Of a stretch of 64,000 nt of DNA, positions 9,754 to 17,804 are shown one piece after another. Position 1 is the first letter of the stretch. Every line of letters starts with the position of its first letter. Both the position numbers and the translations under genes were made by a program. The stretch covers positions 2,356,001 through 2,420,000 of the forward strand of contig NZ_VFON01000001.1 in assembly GCF_006716085.1 (NCBI RefSeq), in the 5' to 3' direction. The notes below the pieces were generated by a model. It worked only from the letters and a program-made list of their open reading frames with translations. It had not been told where the DNA came from and ran no database searches. The stretch is from Leucobacter komagatae (GTDB lineage Bacteria; Actinomycetota; Actinomycetes; Actinomycetales; Microbacteriaceae).

Positions 9754-9837
9754 TGGTGGCGGGTGCGTGATTCGAACACGCGAAGCTTACGCGTCTGATT
9801 TACAGTCAGATCCCTTTGGCCGCTCGGGCAACCCGCC
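9754..9837 (-). tRNA. tRNA-Tyr (anticodon GTA), CCA encoded
   Basis: The minus strand reads a class II tRNA with acceptor GGCGGGT at the 5' end (9837-9831) pairing with ACCCGCC at the 3' end. The discriminator base is A and CCA is encoded (9756-9754). The anticodon stem-loop CTGACTGTAAATCAG gives anticodon GTA. A long variable arm and the T-loop GTTCGAATC are present. Length is 84 nt including CCA, normal for tRNA-Tyr. A strong terminator follows directly. Confidence 0.97.
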
Positions 9838-10482: not shown

Positions 10483-11073
10483 CTACTTGTCGAGGCCCAG
10501 TTCGGCGAGCCTGTCGAGCCAGATATCGGCGCTCGCGTTGTCGAAGGGGGCGCTCTGGGCCCGCACTCGCTTCTCAAGGTCGAGGGCCAGCCCCTCAAGC
10601 TGCCGCATCACGTTCTCGGGGTACCCGAAGAGCGCTGCGTGCTCCGCCCACTCGTCACGGTCGTCGACCCAGGTGCCGGCCTCGCCCTCGACGCGCACGA
10701 CGTCGAGGTCCATGTCTATCCCGGTCACAAGCTCAGGGTTCTCAGACCAGCTGACATCCCAACCGAGATCGATATAGATCCGCATCCCGTCGGGCTCATC
10801 GCGATTCACGGTGAGCGCGAAGTCTGGGCTGTTGATGCCCGCCTGAGCAAACCCAGCTCCCTCACCGCGGGCGGGGACGAGCGTGACGTTTGGTGACTTT
10901 GCAACCCCGCTGCGGCCCGGCCGAACGCTCGCCCAGCCCGTCGGCTGCCCGACCCAGTCGCCCCACGAGTCAGAGCCGAGGTAGACGCACTCGTGGCGCC
11001 AGTGCGGCGAGCCGTCCCACTTTCGCCACTGGAAGACCATCGGGGTGCCTGGGGTTGGTCGCGACGTGTGCAC
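10483..11073 (-). CDS. DUF402 domain protein
   Basis: Protein of 196 residues matching DUF402: YIDLGWDVSWSENPELVTGIDMDLDVVR in the middle, DRDEWAEHAALFGYP, then a helical tail. DUF402 proteins form a small beta-rich fold with a bound metal, and some are nucleotide phosphatases. The acidic residues in IDLGWD and DMDLDVV fit the conserved metal site. It reads leftward towards the PutA-like gene's stop side as a single gene. The biochemical role here is not established. Confidence 0.78.
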   Translation of the reverse strand: MHTSRPTPGTPMVFQWRKWDGSPHWRHECVYLGSDSWGDWVGQPTGWASVRPGRSGVAKSPNVTLVPARGEGAGFAQAGINSPDFALTVNRDEPDGMRIYIDLGWDVSWSENPELVTGIDMDLDVVRVEGEAGTWVDDRDEWAEHAALFGYPENVMRQLEGLALDLEKRVRAQSAPFDNASADIWLDRLAELGLDK

Positions 11074-11097: not shown

Positions 11098-14000
11098 CTA
11101 GTCGAGCAGCGCGTCGAGCCCAGGGGCCCGCTCAGCGAGGCCGTGCCGCTCTGCCCGCACCGAGATCGACTGCTCACGCAACAGGGTCAAGAGCTCGACG
11201 GGGCCCGCCATCGTCACGGGCTCAGCCCAGAGCGCGGCCCGGTCGAGGCCGCCCATCCACTCGGCAACGCGAACTCGGTCGCCCCCGATCAGCCTGACGC
11301 GGGCCGCCTCGGTGCCGCCCGGCCCGGTCGGCCCCTCGGCGGCGAGCCGTTCGAGCCACGCTTCGTCACGCTCGAGCGAGACCTCGATCCCTTGCGATGC
11401 GAGCAACTCACCGACCGCGGGCGGGAGCACTGCGCCGCTCGACACCGTGATCGGCGCCCGCACCAGCAGCGCGGCCGCAAGCACCCTGGCGAGCCCAGCA
11501 AGCGCCCCGTCTTCCGCGAGCCGAACGTGCACCGAGACAGGCGCCGTTCGCAGCGCGTTCCGCTCGACACCGAGACCGATGCCGTCGACCACTGCGCCGA
11601 GGTCGGTCTGCCAGGTGAGCTGGTCGGCGAGCGCCGCGCGCCGCAGCTCGTCGAACTCTTCGTAGGCGAGCGCTGGCTGCACGCCCTCAATGAGCAGCGC
11701 GACCTCGGGCGCAAGGCCCCGCAGGTGCAGCGTGTCGCTCCGCTGCCCCGAACGGCGCTCCCACGACCCCTGGGCGACGAGCCAGTGCGGGCCGCCACCG
11801 AGCGCGGGGAGGCCCATGACCGCATCATTCCACCCACCGAAGGGCTGCCGCTCGACGCGGGCGGCGCTGCTCGGGCGGTTGACGGAGAGCGAGGCGGCCT
11901 CGATGCCCGCGAGCCACGAGCGCACCTCGCCGTCGTCCCACGACTGGATCCCGGCGACAGCCCCGCTCCCAGCAGAGTTCTGCTGCGCAACCGCGTCTCC
12001 GAGCAGCTGCGCCGAGCTGACCCCGATCACGGGGAGCCCGCGGGCGTCGTCCCAGAACGGCGACCCCGGGGAGACGCCGAGCCTGACGCCCGGACGCCAC
12101 AGGAGGCCCTCGTCGTCGAGCTGTTCGGGCTTGACGAGCCACTCCTCACCCGGCCCGAGCTCGGTGAGCGCCGCGCGGCCGGCCGCGCTCGGGGGCACGG
12201 GGAGCGGGCCGATGTCGAAGGCGAGCGGGTCGTCGCCGAGTGGGCGCGCGGAGTCGCCAACACGGAGCCGTTCGACGGCGTCAGCGAGAGCAGACCGGAA
12301 GCCGCGCGAGCGAGCCACGCTCGCGAGCAGCACGACCGACGTGGTGGACCCCAGCGAGGTCTGCGTACCGCGGAACGCCGAATCGATGACGTCGGAGATC
12401 GCCCGTTCGCGCTCGGCCGAGGGCGTGACGAGCACCGAGCCGCGAGCCGTGAAGTGCCCCTCGACTCGCAGGTCTGGCCGGTGCCGCGCGAGCGCCCGTC
12501 CGAGCGCGCGGTCGCCGAGCACAACGGCGCGGTCGACGTGCGGGCTCGCGCCCAGCGCGGCAAACGATTCATCTCCCGAGACGCTCACGGTTCCAACAGC
12601 CCCGGGGGTGAGGCCGCCAACCTCCCACTCCTCGACGCACGCGGTAGCCGCGCGGTGGGCGTCGGGAGTCACGGCCCAGAGCGCGCCGGCGCCGCTTCCG
12701 AGCACGGCAAGCACGGCGGCAGCCTGTGCGGCGAGCGGCGCAGAGTGGTCACCAACGACGAGCACGAGCCGGTCAGGAACGAACGTCGCCCCACGCACAA
12801 CCCTGAGCCCGTCGGCGAGTTGCCCGGCGTAGCGCGCCGAGTCGATGATGTGGTTCACGGCCGCGTCGAGCTCGGGGAACGGGGCCCCCGTTCCAGCCGC
12901 GAGCTCGGTAATAAGTCTGTCTCGCGCCGCCGCCGTTGCGAGCGCGACCCGGCGAAGCCTCACCGCGCGGCCCTCGTGCCGCAGCTCCGACCACCGGTAG
13001 CCTGCGTCGCGGGCAGCCAGCGCGGCGGCCTCCGGGTCGAGGTCGGCCTGACTCAGCGCTATCGTCTCATCAAGCCGCTCCTGGCGCAGAGCGATCTCAC
13101 CGGCGCGGCGGAGCAACCCCCGCGCCCACTCACGGTTCGCGGGGATGCTGCCGTCTGTGGGCGGTTCGTTCGCGAAGCCCGTGCTCGACACGACCGGGAT
13201 CGGGCGCTCGGGCGACACCTCCTCAAGCACGACCTCGCCCGTCGCGTTTCGCGCGAGCCCGAGCACCGCGGCAGTGAGCCCGCCGGTGTCATGTGTCGCC
13301 GGCTCGTCGGGGGCCCGGTAAAAGAGCGCGCTGTCGCGCTCCGTGGGATCCCACTCGCGTGCGCGCTGCTGCTGGCGGTGGCTCGCGGGGCCAGGCTCGC
13401 TCGCGAGCTCGACCGCGCGTGCGAACGTCTCGGCGGTCACCGCAGTTGGCTCTGCCGAAGCCGCCTCGGCGAGCACGCTCACGAGGTAGCCGAGGGCCTC
13501 GGCGTACTCCCGCTTCGGCGTGACCGGCAGCCGGAGCCGCACATCGGGCACCCCATCATCGACGAGCAGCCTGGCCCCGAGCTCAGTCGCGAGCCCGCTG
13601 CGGAGCTGGAGGGCGAACAGCTTTCCGGATCCTAATCGCTCTGCGGCGGCGATCGCGGCCGCGGCGACGAGCGGATCCTCCGTCGCGATGACGGGCCGCA
13701 GCACCGACGCACGGCTCGGCTGCAGCGCGACCTCGGCGAGGCGAAGGAGCTGGGCGAGGCGCTCCGTCGCGTCCTCAATCACGGCGACGGGCAGCCCGCT
13801 GTGGATCGAGGCGACGCGCTCGGCGGCCGCAACGTCTCCGAGCCCAATGATGACCTCGACGGGCGCGCCACCGTCGGCGACCCTGCGTCGCGCGAACCTG
13901 TGGATCGCGGCGTACGTCTCCCAGGCCTCGGGCAGCTCGGCAAAGAGCCGCACGGCGATCTCGAGCCTGTCGAGCTCCGCGCACGCGATTGCGCGCGTCA

Positions 14001-14748
14001 GCAGCTCGGCAAGCTGCTTCGCCCACACGGTGTCTCGCGGCTCAACGACGAGCCGCACGCCGTGCTCGAGCGCGGCCTCCAGCAGGGGGCGGATCCGCTC
14101 GATCACCAGCGCGAGGTCTGCCTCGATTGTCCACTCCGTCGCCCCGGGCACGAGGCGCGCCGGGTCGAAGGCGAGCTCCTTCACCGCTGGGTGCGCGACG
14201 AGCGCAAGCAGCCGGTCGAGCTCGGTGCGCGCGCCCCGCTCGCCAAACACGGAGCCGCCGTGAAGCGCGAGCAGCACCGAGTAGCCCCGCTCACGCTGCT
14301 CCCGCAGCGTTTCGGTGAGCGCCGACATCTTGCCGCTGAGCTTCAGCTGCAGCAGCACGCCGGGCAGGCGCGCGAGAAGGTTCTTGCGCGCCGCGGGCCG
14401 CACCACCCACGGCAGCCCGAGCGACGCGACGCCACCCGCGCGCAGGAGCAGCCGGTCACGGGTCGGCATGCCCTCGGGTAGCTCGCCCTTGGAGACCCCG
14501 CGCAACCCGACCGCGGCGGTGAACGCGTCGGATGTGCCGAAGAGTGAGTCGATGAGGTGGCGGGTGAAATCGAGGCTCTCGGGGCTCGCCGCGAGCTCAC
14601 CGAGCAGCGTGCCGCGCGCGCCGCCCTCTGGGCGGTCCCCCTCAGCCTCGCTGCCGGCTGACGCCGCCTCCCAGACGCGCACGCGCTGCTCTGCAGCCTC
14701 GGCGACAGACTCCCATACCGACGCGGCGTTCACCTGCTCGTCTCCCAT
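11098..14748 (-). CDS. PutA-like bifunctional proline dehydrogenase / P5C dehydrogenase homologue, probably catalytically dead
   Basis: Protein of 1216 residues with the length and layout of PutA: a PRODH barrel (about 90-480) and an ALDH-fold half (about 560-1130). The family frame is clear (FARRRVADGGAPVEV, EYAEALGYLVSVL, VARSRGFRSAL, PFGGW), but key residues are missing. The YLVRR proline-binding motif reads YLVSV. The RLVKGAN strand reads IIGLGDV. The ALDH catalytic Cys region (AGQKCSA in the family) reads TQTSLGS with no Cys, and the Glu region (ETSGKNA) reads HFTARGS. Only two Cys occur in the whole protein, neither at the active site. The frame is intact, so it is probably a maintained pseudoenzyme or a protein with a new role. 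Confidence 0.8.
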   Translation of the reverse strand: MGDEQVNAASVWESVAEAAEQRVRVWEAASAGSEAEGDRPEGGARGTLLGELAASPESLDFTRHLIDSLFGTSDAFTAAVGLRGVSKGELPEGMPTRDRLLLRAGGVASLGLPWVVRPAARKNLLARLPGVLLQLKLSGKMSALTETLREQRERGYSVLLALHGGSVFGERGARTELDRLLALVAHPAVKELAFDPARLVPGATEWTIEADLALVIERIRPLLEAALEHGVRLVVEPRDTVWAKQLAELLTRAIACAELDRLEIAVRLFAELPEAWETYAAIHRFARRRVADGGAPVEVIIGLGDVAAAERVASIHSGLPVAVIEDATERLAQLLRLAEVALQPSRASVLRPVIATEDPLVAAAAIAAAERLGSGKLFALQLRSGLATELGARLLVDDGVPDVRLRLPVTPKREYAEALGYLVSVLAEAASAEPTAVTAETFARAVELASEPGPASHRQQQRAREWDPTERDSALFYRAPDEPATHDTGGLTAAVLGLARNATGEVVLEEVSPERPIPVVSSTGFANEPPTDGSIPANREWARGLLRRAGEIALRQERLDETIALSQADLDPEAAALAARDAGYRWSELRHEGRAVRLRRVALATAAARDRLITELAAGTGAPFPELDAAVNHIIDSARYAGQLADGLRVVRGATFVPDRLVLVVGDHSAPLAAQAAAVLAVLGSGAGALWAVTPDAHRAATACVEEWEVGGLTPGAVGTVSVSGDESFAALGASPHVDRAVVLGDRALGRALARHRPDLRVEGHFTARGSVLVTPSAERERAISDVIDSAFRGTQTSLGSTTSVVLLASVARSRGFRSALADAVERLRVGDSARPLGDDPLAFDIGPLPVPPSAAGRAALTELGPGEEWLVKPEQLDDEGLLWRPGVRLGVSPGSPFWDDARGLPVIGVSSAQLLGDAVAQQNSAGSGAVAGIQSWDDGEVRSWLAGIEAASLSVNRPSSAARVERQPFGGWNDAVMGLPALGGGPHWLVAQGSWERRSGQRSDTLHLRGLAPEVALLIEGVQPALAYEEFDELRRAALADQLTWQTDLGAVVDGIGLGVERNALRTAPVSVHVRLAEDGALAGLARVLAAALLVRAPITVSSGAVLPPAVGELLASQGIEVSLERDEAWLERLAAEGPTGPGGTEAARVRLIGGDRVRVAEWMGGLDRAALWAEPVTMAGPVELLTLLREQSISVRAERHGLAERAPGLDALLD

Positions 14749-14792
14749 GACCCCACTCTAGGGCGGCCTCCTCGCGAAACCCCGTGAACACG

Positions 14793-14830
14793 CGAGAGCC
14801 CCGCGCACCTCTCGGCGGGCGGGGCTCTCG
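14793..14830 (-). terminator. Hairpin terminator of the ABC substrate-binding gene
   Basis: Arms CGAGAGCCCCG (14793-14803) and CGGGGCTCTCG (14820-14830) are perfect complements over 11 bp with a 16-nt loop. It begins 19 bases past the substrate-binding gene stop on the minus strand. There is no clear U-tail, as is common in high-GC actinobacteria. Confidence 0.6.
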
Positions 14831-14849
14831 GGCTGCAGAGCCGGAAGGG

Positions 14850-15842
14850 CTATTCGACCTTCTCGGCCTCTGCGAGGATCGCCTCGGGGATGGTTGCGCC
14901 CATCCGCTTCGCGGCGTCTTCGTTCACGACGTACGCGAACTCGTTCGAGACCTCGACGGGCATGGTCGCGGGGTCGGCACCCTCGAGCACTTTGAGTGCC
15001 ATCTCGCCGGTCTGGTAGCCAAGCTTCGTGTAGTCGATACCGAGCGTGATGACCGCGCCGCCCTCGACGGTACCGGCCTCAGCGCCGATGACAGGGATCT
15101 GCTTGTCTTCAGCGACCTGCACGAGCGAGGCGATGCCCGCGACGACCATATTGTCGGTCGGCACGTAGATCGCGTCGACGTCGCCGAGCGCCTCGGTCGC
15201 CGCAGCGATGTCGTTCGCGGTGGTAACGGTCTTCGTGACGACCTCGAGGCCGAGCGGGCCCGCAGCCTCAGTCACAGCGTCGACCTGCACCTGCGAGTTG
15301 ACCTCGCCCGAGGCGTAGACGATGCCGACCTTCTTCGCGCCCGGGGCGACCTCCTTGAGCAGCGCGAGCTGCTCGTCGAAGGGCGCGAGGTCGCTCGTGC
15401 CGGTGACGTTGCCGCCGGGCTTCTCGTTCGACTCGACGAGCTGGCCTTCGACGGCGTCGGTGACTGCGGTGAAGAGGATCGGCTTGTCGGTGATCGCCTG
15501 TGCCGCGGTCTGCGCTGCCGGCGTCGCGACGGCGAGCACGAGGTCGAGGTCAGAGGAGGCGAAGTTCTGCGCGATGGTGACGGCGGTTGCCTGGTCGCCA
15601 TTTGCGTTCTGGTCGTCCCACTCAACCTTCACGCCAGCGTCGTCAAACGCCTGCTTGAAGCCGGCTGTGGCTGCGTCGAGCGCGGGGTGCTGCACGAACT
15701 GGCTCACACCGATCTTGTACGAGGCCTTCGCCTCGTCTCCCGAGTCGGTTGCGGCGGGGCTGGAGCAGGCGCTCAGCGTGAGTGCTGCAGCGGCGAGGCC
15801 GGCGAGCGCGATGCCTGAGCGGCGGAACGAGGTCAGTCGCAT
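14850..15842 (-). CDS. ABC transporter substrate-binding lipoprotein (TrpX-type)
   Basis: Starts at the ATG at 15840-15842 (MRLTSFRRSG); the open frame further upstream is Arg/Pro-rich and non-coding in character. The 330-residue product has a signal peptide with lipobox LTLSAC, so it is exported and lipid-anchored. The body matches the ABC_sub_bind family: KIGVSQFVQHPALDAATAGF, then NPNGDQ-like QNANGDQATA, then KPILFTAVTDAVEGQLV. The family includes tryptophan/tyrosine and other solute receptors. The permease and ATPase genes lie upstream on the same strand; the 235-bp gap may contain a separate promoter. Confidence 0.88.
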   Translation of the reverse strand: MRLTSFRRSGIALAGLAAAALTLSACSSPAATDSGDEAKASYKIGVSQFVQHPALDAATAGFKQAFDDAGVKVEWDDQNANGDQATAVTIAQNFASSDLDLVLAVATPAAQTAAQAITDKPILFTAVTDAVEGQLVESNEKPGGNVTGTSDLAPFDEQLALLKEVAPGAKKVGIVYASGEVNSQVQVDAVTEAAGPLGLEVVTKTVTTANDIAAATEALGDVDAIYVPTDNMVVAGIASLVQVAEDKQIPVIGAEAGTVEGGAVITLGIDYTKLGYQTGEMALKVLEGADPATMPVEVSNEFAYVVNEDAAKRMGATIPEAILAEAEKVE

Positions 15843-16077
15843 AGTAAAACGGTCCTTCGTGAGTGTGCCGCTGCAACACCGCAACGGCAGGGGAAGACGG
15901 CGAGGGCTCCGCCGTTTCCAGCATCGTACCGCGACAGGCCCCGGCAACTCGGCACACAGCTGCGCAACAGTTACGCAAACGAGACGGGGCCGGGGCTGGC
16001 CGCGGGGCCCACCAGCCCCGCAGGCCCGTCGGCCACGCAGCCCGCCGGCACCGCGGCCCACCGGCCCCGCGGCACCC

Positions 16078-16869
16078 CTACGCCAGCAGCGCCCTGTCGT
16101 CGAAGCTTGCGCCCTTGATCTTCGCGAACTCCGCGAGCAGCATCGGCACGGTGAGCTTCGCTTTCTCCTCGGCGCTTGCTTCGAACACGATCCGCCCCTC
16201 GTGCATCATGACGAGCCGGTTACCGAGCTTGAGCGCCTGCTCCATGTTGTGCGTCACCATGAGCGTCGTGAGGTTCCCCTCCGCGACGATGCGCTCGGTG
16301 AGGTCGGTCACGAGCGCGGCGCGCTGCGGGTCGAGCGCGGCAGTGTGCTCGTCGAGCAGCAGGATGCGCGGCTGCGTGAACCCCGCCATGAGCAGCGACA
16401 GCGCCTGGCGTTGACCGCCCGAGAGCAGGCCCACCTTCGCGCTGAGACGGTTCTCGAGGCCGAGTTCGAGCGACTCGAGCTCGCGGGCGAACTCCGCCCG
16501 GCGCGCCTTCGTGATGCCCCGGCGCAGGCCGCGACGCTTGCCGCGCTGCAGTGCGAGCGCGAGGTTTTGCTCGATCGTGAGGTCGGGTGCGGTGCCCGCC
16601 ATCGGGTCCTGGAACACACGGCCGACGAAGCGCGCCCGCTTGAATTCCTTCAGTTTCGACACCGGCGAGCCGTCAATACTGATCGAGCCCGAGTCGGCGA
16701 AGTAGCGGCCCGAGATGGTGTTGAGCAGCGTCGACTTGCCGGCGCCGTTCGAGCCGATCACGGTCACGAAGTCGCCCTCGGCGAGCTCGAGGTTGAGGTC
16801 GACCAGCGCGCGGCGTTCGTTGACGGTGCCCGCGAAGAACGTCTTTGAAATCTTGGAGATGCTCAGCAC
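16078..16869 (-). CDS. ABC transporter ATP-binding protein (TrpZ-type)
   Basis: The start is the GTG at 16867-16869 behind GGGAG, 2 bases after the permease stop; the frame is open further upstream but only across the permease gene. The 263-residue product has Walker A GSNGAGKS (about 39-46), signature LLSGGQRQALS, Walker B ILLLDEHTAALD and the H-loop MVTHNMEQ. The E of the Walker B motif is followed by HTAALD, as in ATPases paired with PF04392 receptors. It energises uptake with the adjacent permease and receptor. Confidence 0.9.
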   Translation of the reverse strand: MLSISKISKTFFAGTVNERRALVDLNLELAEGDFVTVIGSNGAGKSTLLNTISGRYFADSGSISIDGSPVSKLKEFKRARFVGRVFQDPMAGTAPDLTIEQNLALALQRGKRRGLRRGITKARRAEFARELESLELGLENRLSAKVGLLSGGQRQALSLLMAGFTQPRILLLDEHTAALDPQRAALVTDLTERIVAEGNLTTLMVTHNMEQALKLGNRLVMMHEGRIVFEASAEEKAKLTVPMLLAEFAKIKGASFDDRALLA

Positions 16870-16871
16870 GA

Positions 16872-17804
16872 TTACGCTCCCGTCGTGGTCGCCGCGGCGG
16901 GCTGGGGTGTCGGTTCGGGGCGTCTGTTGCCCCGGTTCTTGAACGACGGAATGCGCTTCAGGAAGCCCCAGCGCGGCAGCAGCAGCGCCGCGATCACGAG
17001 GAGCGCGGTCATGAGCTTCATGTCGTCCTGGTTGAACCCGATGCGCAGCGCGCCGAAGATGATGATGCGGTAGAGCACGGCGCCGACGACGACAGCGAGG
17101 GTGGCGAGCCAGATCCAGCGCTGGCCAAGGAGCGCCTGGCCGAGAATCACGGAGGCGAGGCCGACAAGGATCACGCCGATGCCCATGCTGATGTCTGCAA
17201 CACCGTTGTACTGCGCGATGAGCGCGCCCGCGAGCCCGACGAGTCCGTTCGAGATCGACAGGGTCAGAATCTTCATGCCGTCGGTGTTCACACCGAACGA
17301 ACGGATCATCTGCTCGTTGTTGCCCGTCGCCTGGATCGCGAGGCCGAGGTCGGTCGACAGGAACCAGTCGACGAGCAGCTTGATCGCGAATACGACGACG
17401 AGGAAGATGAGCACGACGTACCAGGTCTTGCCCATCCAGCCAGCCTCGCGCAGCGGGCTGATGAGCGTCTCCTCGCGGAGGAACGGCAAATTCGACTTCC
17501 CCATGATGCGCAGGTTGATCGACCACAGCGCAATCATGGTCAGGATCCCGGCAAGGAGCCCGTCGATCTTGCCCTTTGTGTGCAGGATCCCGGTGACCGC
17601 GCCCGCGATCATGCCCGTCACCCCGCCCGCGAGCGTCGCGAGCAGCGGGCTTTGCCCGGCGTGGATGAGGGCGGCCGCGGTCGCGGCGCCCGTCGTCAGG
17701 CTGCCGTCAACCGTGAGGTCGGGAAAGTTGAGCACGCGAAAGGTGAGGTATACCCCGAGGGCGAAAATGCCGTATAGAAGTCCAACTTCGATTGCGCCAA
17801 TCAA
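16872..17804 (-). CDS. ABC transporter permease (TrpY-type)
   Basis: Protein of 310 residues with about eight to nine membrane helices and a short polar C-terminal tail rich in Pro/Ala/Thr. The stretch FRVLNFPDLTVDGSLTTGAA near the N-terminus and LAIQATGNNEQMIRSFGVN in the middle are characteristic of permeases of the branched-chain-amino-acid-like family that pair with PF04392 receptors. First of three transporter genes. It starts 64 bp behind the aminotransferase stop, so it may be read through from that gene. Confidence 0.88.
   Translation of the reverse strand: MIGAIEVGLLYGIFALGVYLTFRVLNFPDLTVDGSLTTGAATAAALIHAGQSPLLATLAGGVTGMIAGAVTGILHTKGKIDGLLAGILTMIALWSINLRIMGKSNLPFLREETLISPLREAGWMGKTWYVVLIFLVVVFAIKLLVDWFLSTDLGLAIQATGNNEQMIRSFGVNTDGMKILTLSISNGLVGLAGALIAQYNGVADISMGIGVILVGLASVILGQALLGQRWIWLATLAVVVGAVLYRIIIFGALRIGFNQDDMKLMTALLVIAALLLPRWGFLKRIPSFKNRGNRRPEPTPQPAAATTTGA

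Follow-up and report, generated by a model that had tools for sequence, protein, structure and literature searches.

A full-length PutA homologue with both active sites lost in Leucobacter komagatae

A Second PutA and Its Predicted Fold

The stretch of the Leucobacter komagatae genome analysed here (hereafter the window; 64,000 nucleotides of contig NZ_VFON01000001.1, positions 2,356,001 to 2,420,000) carries on its minus strand, at 11098–14748, an ATG-initiated frame of 1216 residues encoding a full-length PutA homologue in which both the proline dehydrogenase (PRODH) and the aldehyde dehydrogenase (ALDH) active sites have been lost. We call this protein PutA2, and the other PutA of the same genome PutA1. 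The similarity of PutA2 to PutA is significant over both the PRODH and ALDH domains, and the solved PutA of Corynebacterium freiburgense (5ux5) matches residues 49–432 and 594–1079 with an E-value of 5.8e-88. Pfam recognized Aldedh (94.5 bits) and reported neither a Pro_dh match nor, up to an E-value of 10, a ribbon-helix-helix or other DNA-binding domain. The AlphaFold model of residues 18–1216 has a predicted local distance difference test score (pLDDT) of 89.2 and a predicted template modelling score of 0.91, and all 50 Foldseek hits printed for it are PutA proteins, the best being 5ux5 with a template modelling score of 0.89 by target length and 0.72 by query length. A preliminary description, made from the letters of the sequence, had recognized PutA size and landmarks over the 1216 residues, and the ATG frame, the match to 5ux5 and the predicted fold confirm a full-length PutA by descent and modelled structure.

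With domain boundaries of our own, the protein comprises a PRODH-like barrel (about residues 141–430; 13459–14328, minus strand, as for all PutA2 features), in which the residues for flavin adenine dinucleotide (FAD) and proline are replaced, an ALDH-like domain (about residues 571–985; 11794–13038), in which the catalytic Cys, Glu, and Asn are lost, and a C-terminal domain (about residues 986–1216; 11101–11793), which is the best conserved of the domains and contains the top 15-residue window of the protein, residues 1173–1187 (LWAEPVTMAGPVELL). The core of the interdomain linker (residues 456–513; 13210–13383) is likewise among the best conserved stretches, and it is modelled with pLDDT below 50 at residues 468–513 (451–496 in the numbering of the trimmed model). 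Within it lies GLTAAVLGL (residues 490–498; 13255–13281), identical in 120 of 120 listed homologues, these being the best 120 of 193 found in a search that scored only candidates sharing most words. The C-terminal domain is modelled confidently and fits the definition of type B PutA, a C-terminal domain of 100–200 residues past the catalytic core (PMC5293562).

Loss of Both Active Sites

Residues were compared with those of the genome's own canonical PutA1 (L023, 6664–10332, plus strand), in which RLVKGAN, YLIRR, AETSGKNA, and AGQKCSA are all intact. The preliminary description had raised the question of a second, canonical putA, and PutA1, sharing only 27% identity with PutA2, is the one other PutA of this genome (3.75 Mb, two contigs). 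In PutA2, RLVKGAN has given way to IIGLGDV (residues 300–306; 13831–13851), YLIRR to YLVSV (residues 421–425; 13474–13488), the Glu block ETSGKNA to HFTARGS (residues 765–771; 12436–12456), and the Cys block AGQKCSA to TQTSLGS (residues 795–801; 12346–12366), so that the four replacements read from the sequence at first sight, including Leu at the Cys position, all reappear in the alignment. On the ALDH side, Cys is replaced by Leu, Glu by His, and the Asn of PWN by Ser; on the PRODH side, the Lys of RLVKGAN is replaced by Leu, the His of GHN by Glu, the Tyr of EEYKDL by Thr, and the Arg pair by Ser-Val. The remaining landmark residues, apart from the catalytic Cys and the proline-binding Arg, are presumed here to have their usual roles. 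For those two, the roles follow a paper on Bradyrhizobium PutA (PMC5786444). It had also been claimed that PutA2 has two Cys and none at the active site; they are residues 256 and 704, and neither falls inside the four compared blocks. A structure-based alignment restoring the catalytic Cys and Glu and the two Arg, named beforehand as grounds for abandoning the idea, did not emerge from the comparisons made, a predicted PutA fold and a sequence alignment with 5ux5 that is gapless through the Cys block and has no Cys there.

These replacements extend to the listed homologues. At the columns of the ALDH Cys, Glu, and Asn and of the PRODH Lys and His, none of the 120 retains the canonical residue, whereas Arg occurs at the first Arg column in 8 and at the second in 5, and the Tyr of EEYKDL is kept in 27. 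Because none of the 120 keeps any of the first five residues, the losses are, at the level of sequence, beyond chance. Judged by the landmarks of a functional bifunctional PutA (the Arg pair, Lys, and His of PRODH; the Cys, Glu, and Asn of ALDH), PutA2 appears to lack what either activity needs. The database names of the listed homologues are generic, such as aldehyde or proline dehydrogenase family, RHH-type (ribbon-helix-helix) PutA, or hypothetical protein.

Purifying Selection and Presence in the Genus

The ratio of nonsynonymous to synonymous substitution rates (dN/dS; Nei-Gojobori) of PutA2 against six orthologues of the genus is 0.110–0.204, compared with 0.049–0.224 for PutA1 in the same genomes, ratios that are approximate since dS is close to 1 in several PutA2 pairs. 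The C-terminal domain is the most constrained region (0.051–0.138), the values being 0.087–0.163 for the ALDH-like and 0.135–0.254 for the PRODH-like domain, and residues 1–48 are under hardly any constraint (0.44–0.74). Each of the 54 genus genomes searched has a match to PutA2, and in 50 of them the frame stays open over 1000 codons or more. With its catalytic residues gone and its gene under purifying selection, PutA2 would qualify as a pseudoenzyme.

It might be argued that PutA2 is a slowly decaying pseudogene, its frame held open by chance in a GC-rich genome, given that antisense frames in such DNA are often open (one of 880 codons occurs in the window) and that PutA2 is split into shorter frames in 4 of the 54 genomes. 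However, decay is contradicted by the dN/dS values, by the match in every genome of the genus, by the unchanged GLTAAVLGL in all 120 listed homologues, and by a TANNNT box ahead of the ATG in 15 of 15 loci (see below). Simple decay is thereby ruled out, as the preliminary description had argued from the open frame, and we give the pseudogene explanation practically no weight. As for the individual broken copies, PutA2 is divided among at least two shorter frames in both G310, which is by its coordinates the same record as L061 (Leucobacter coleopterorum), and G316. PutA1 is also broken in G310, which may point to sequencing errors, and is intact in G316 (an open frame of 1210 codons).

Persistence without a Working PutA

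Since most genomes hold both proteins, PutA2 might be a dead regulatory subunit that tunes PutA1 through mixed dimers. A separate PRODH match was found by a Pro_dh family search in 45 of the 54 genomes of the genus, PutA2 and a working PutA occurred together in 16 of 17 genomes of a separate survey, and the RQPxGGW block is still fairly conserved in PutA2 (0.80). Against this, nine of the 54 genomes (G096, G299, G317, G319, G328, G334, G338, G340, and G344) have no other PRODH match or only the weak one of PutA2 itself. Three of them (G096, G299, and G319) are single-contig, and six fall among the 45 genomes of good quality (completeness at least 90%, contamination at most 5%). When PutA1 was searched for in these good-quality six (G096, G299, G317, G319, G340, and G344), the best match was PutA2, and below it came shorter, ALDH-only matches. 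Likewise, G136, from a different genus, has only a dead PutA and no working PutA match, also in a search with PutA1. PutA2 thus outlives the working enzyme in some genomes, which speaks against a sole role as regulatory partner of PutA1, and the low identity between the two proteins in the window's genome points the same way. Because PutA2 persists without PutA1, we have downgraded the mixed-dimer explanation and regard it as rather improbable.

Where Conservation Now Lies

In 57 canonical PutAs (PutA1 and outgroup PutAs included), the 15 pocket blocks, together 121 columns, have a mean top-residue frequency of 0.927 vs. 0.649 for the whole protein. In 125 PutA2 proteins (the near-identical P0001 left out), the same blocks reach 0.673 vs. 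0.666, which is average, and the lowest value of any block, 0.43, belongs to the Cys block. By contrast, the linker core at residues 456–505 has a mean of 0.859, and the best conserved windows are residues 1173–1187 in the C-terminal domain and 464–478 and 486–500 in the linker, the N-terminus being the least conserved region (0.314). As far as residue frequencies go, therefore, conservation in PutA2 has moved from the pockets to the linker and the C-terminal domain.

These values bear on two further explanations. PutA2 might be a neofunctionalised enzyme or a sensor whose former pockets bind another ligand or run another reaction, for which the purifying selection on both the PRODH-like and ALDH-like domains, the new consensus residues in former pocket blocks, and the aminotransferase and ABC (ATP-binding cassette) transporter genes upstream could be cited. 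However, the Cys block varies more than any other pocket block, and the pocket blocks taken together show no more than average conservation; we consider this explanation unlikely, albeit the strongest competitor. It is also conceivable that PutA2 is a DNA-binding or membrane-associated regulator in the manner of trifunctional PutA. Trifunctional PutAs are described as repressing put genes through DNA binding and a type B PutA as having a lipid-binding activity that proline activates (PMC5293562), and Ralstonia PutA is described as a global regulator (PMC9132996). The absence of any Pfam match to a DNA-binding domain and the poorly conserved N-terminus argue against such a regulator, which we hold to be very improbable.

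The linker motif, in the form GLTxxVLGLxRG, is found in 11 of 13 working PutAs of the canonical subclade to which PutA2 attaches (see below), and in 0 of 9 other canonical PutAs of the Microbacteriaceae group and 0 of 9 PutA1. The pattern is also present in all 3 partly degraded rows, in all 17 rows of the Leucobacter type and both of the Microbacterium type, and in 12 of the 13 of the Pseudoclavibacter type. In the model of a working Cryobacterium PutA from the same subclade, pLDDT is below 50 in the linker at 468–491 and 502–512, with a short helix at 492–498 over the motif. A stricter DNA pattern of the motif hit only PutA2 itself in the window's genome, and the idea of a docking sequence common to other proteins of this genome was dropped, only PutA2 having matched.

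Relatives, Intermediates, and Origin

Named records with a dead PutA2 come from many Leucobacter and also from Canibacter, and dead copies occur in genomes of two further genera (G047; G051 and G121). In three other genera, PutA is partly degraded: the copy of G003 (L093) keeps its PRODH blocks and the ALDH Cys, with the ALDH Glu replaced by Ala; that of G024 (L095) has RLVKGES and keeps Glu and Cys, with the residue preceding Cys changed; and that of Klugiella (L094) has lost the ALDH Glu and Cys and one PRODH Arg. These copies may be surviving intermediate stages between enzyme and pseudoenzyme. Each of the genomes concerned, that of Klugiella xanthotipulae (L094/L059) included, also has a PutA with all landmarks.

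Two more dead types were recognized in a wider listing of relatives (the best 120 of 319, again scoring only candidates sharing most words). The first, of Pseudoclavibacter and Gulosibacter, consists of 31 proteins (P0121–P0151) plus L224 from G136. All 31 have lost the three ALDH residues Cys, Glu, and Asn as well as the PRODH Lys; 29 have Arg in place of this Lys, one keeps the His, and the first and second PRODH Arg are kept in 7 and 21, respectively. The other type is Microbacterium-like (P0163 and P0164, one of them from Microbacterium sp. SLBN-111), with the ALDH Cys and Glu and the PRODH Lys lost, the ALDH Asn kept in both, and the second PRODH Arg kept in one. Proteins of the Pseudoclavibacter type are often 1360–1726 residues long. 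Those of these other dead types that carry a database name are entered under the proline or aldehyde dehydrogenase family, as 1-pyrroline-5-carboxylate dehydrogenase, or as hypothetical protein.

In a rooted tree of 77 chosen rows, made by a quick search (an earlier, unrooted tree of 56 rows served as a first look only), the 35 degraded and dead rows group together with a Shimodaira–Hasegawa-like approximate likelihood ratio of 98, nested, along with 20 of the 22 other canonical rows, in a canonical clade made up mainly of Microbacteriaceae. The PutA1 rows fall outside this clade in two groups, the Leucobacter and Canibacter PutA1 grouping with records whose names begin with Parafrankia or Mycolicibacter. 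We infer that it is the canonical clade enclosing the dead forms that was inherited vertically. As a guard against long-branch attraction, the types were also placed one at a time, under a simpler model and with 9 of the 17 rows of the Leucobacter type and 8 of the 13 of the Pseudoclavibacter type. All four types attach to the same 13-row canonical subclade (support 97–100 for the subclade with the added type included), and the Microbacterium type falls inside it, beside Microbacterium PutAs, with support of 100. Because of this placement, the Microbacterium type looks like an independent loss of catalysis, although the joint tree groups it with the other dead types.

Gene Neighborhood and Upstream Region

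Six bases ahead of the ATG of PutA2 lies TAGAGT (14755–14760, minus strand), a probable −10 element of a leaderless transcript. A TANNNT box begins 12 bases (once 13) before the Met in 15 of 15 loci, a count drawn from 16 of 30 printed loci of which one (L158) was dropped for having no Met in its first 70 codons; starts were placed at the first Met, and close relatives are among the 15 loci. The PutA2 transcript is therefore probably leaderless. Between the gene of the binding protein upstream and PutA2, a consensus scan gave no sigma-70 promoter or terminator. The same interval contains a GC-rich hairpin (14790–14830; z-score of −2.61 for the RNA fold of 14770–14850) without a T run, perhaps a terminator of actinobacterial kind.

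Upstream of PutA2 are genes of an ABC transporter (14850–17804, minus strand) for a permease (PF02653), an ATPase (PF00005), and a binding protein (PF04392). In 63 loci examined, which include 13 of working PutAs and several short contigs, such a transporter adjoins the gene in 26 and an aminotransferase lies upstream in 16, the setting seen in Leucobacter, one Canibacter, and G047. Elsewhere the upstream neighbor is a thioesterase gene (PF13279), as in 10 of the 12 working Cryobacterium copies, in two of the three partly degraded copies (G003 and G024, not Klugiella), and in two of three Pseudoclavibacter-type dead copies (G136 and G234, not G073). Gene order thus agrees in part with the placement in the tree. 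On the other side of PutA2, 24 bases after it, is a gene for a 196-residue protein (10483–11073, minus strand) that stands beside PutA2 in 2 of the 63 loci (L024 and L028); its assignment as a DUF402 protein was rejected, Pfam giving no match at an E-value of 0.001. The only tRNA gene found in the window is that of tRNA-Tyr (9754–9837, minus strand).

Proposed Role

Taken together, we hypothesize, with somewhat better than even confidence, that PutA2 is a pseudoenzyme in both halves whose inferred job is docking or scaffolding. A PutA of the Microbacteriaceae type would have lost its FAD and proline chemistry and its nicotinamide adenine dinucleotide and semialdehyde chemistry in lineages that usually possess a further, working PutA, and the whole fold would have been retained for a non-catalytic task. 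The PutA fold might then provide a rigid and probably dimeric body, while partner binding would fall to the conserved C-terminal domain and to the flexible linker, in which GLTAAVLGL forms a short island. Docking peptides typically look like this, short conserved helical stretches within flexible linkers, so PutA2 most likely holds a partner protein, and because most working relatives in the subclade have the motif as well, the docking role probably predates the loss of catalysis. The preliminary description had left the choice among a structural, a regulatory, and a newly specialised relative of PutA; the analysis supports the loss of both sites without simple decay, and a docking or scaffolding role is favored.

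More tentatively, and with slightly less than even expectation, the PutA lineage may have gained the docking peptide GLTxxVLGLxRG while still an enzyme, and a later need elsewhere may have let catalysis go more than once, in the Leucobacter/Canibacter, the Pseudoclavibacter/Gulosibacter, and the Microbacterium types, leaving a non-catalytic scaffold of the 130-kDa class that in some genomes has outlasted proline oxidation.

Several observations weigh against a scaffold role or its proposed history. Remodelled pockets serving another ligand or reaction are possible, as some pocket blocks have acquired a new consensus (AELPES, 0.86; VIASED, 0.79). PutA2 lies in shorter frames in four genomes of the genus (the drafts G325 and G338, and G310 and G316). 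The motif pattern is absent from 2 of the 13 working relatives and from 1 of the 13 Pseudoclavibacter-type proteins, and it occurs in 1 of 11 outgroups at an unrelated place. The trees are quick searches, in which long branches may misgroup the dead types, and the thioesterase neighbor was not found in Klugiella, at one Pseudoclavibacter-type locus, or at Leucobacter-type loci.

With both halves dead and the whole protein kept throughout the genus, in more genomes than its working paralogue, PutA2 would offer an unusually clean bacterial pseudoenzyme system, and the partly degraded relatives and further dead types make it testable whether a moonlighting function borne by the linker precedes catalytic loss and frees the enzyme from catalysis. 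It also follows that entries of these genera named proline or aldehyde dehydrogenase family or RHH-type PutA need not oxidise proline, which matters for metabolic reconstruction.

Comparison with Known Systems

No report of a dead PutA paralogue was found in the literature searched, where coverage is thin for subscription journals and the only match concerned the quinone reductase NQO2, while pseudoenzymes of the ALDH superfamily are already known. Mammalian ALDH16A1, which belongs to a lineage different from that of PutA2 and is not known to have a PRODH domain, is one such pseudoenzyme, and PutA2 resembles it as an ALDH-superfamily protein without catalytic residues. ALDH16A1 lacks the catalytic triad and is reported to keep biological roles (PMC10650815).

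Among working enzymes, the nearest relatives of PutA2 by tree are the canonical PutAs of Cryobacterium, Mycetocola, and Microbacterium, which mostly have the same linker motif and, unlike PutA2, have their active-site blocks intact; that of Cryobacterium also has its thioesterase neighbor in common with some degraded copies. Among solved structures, 5ux5 and the PutA of Sinorhizobium meliloti (5kf6), both of which we take to be type B PutAs, share with PutA2 the order of PRODH, ALDH, and C-terminal domain and the overall fold. Unlike either, PutA2 has its landmarks for catalysis and cofactors replaced at both sites, and it carries a long, conserved linker of low model confidence that bears GLTAAVLGL.

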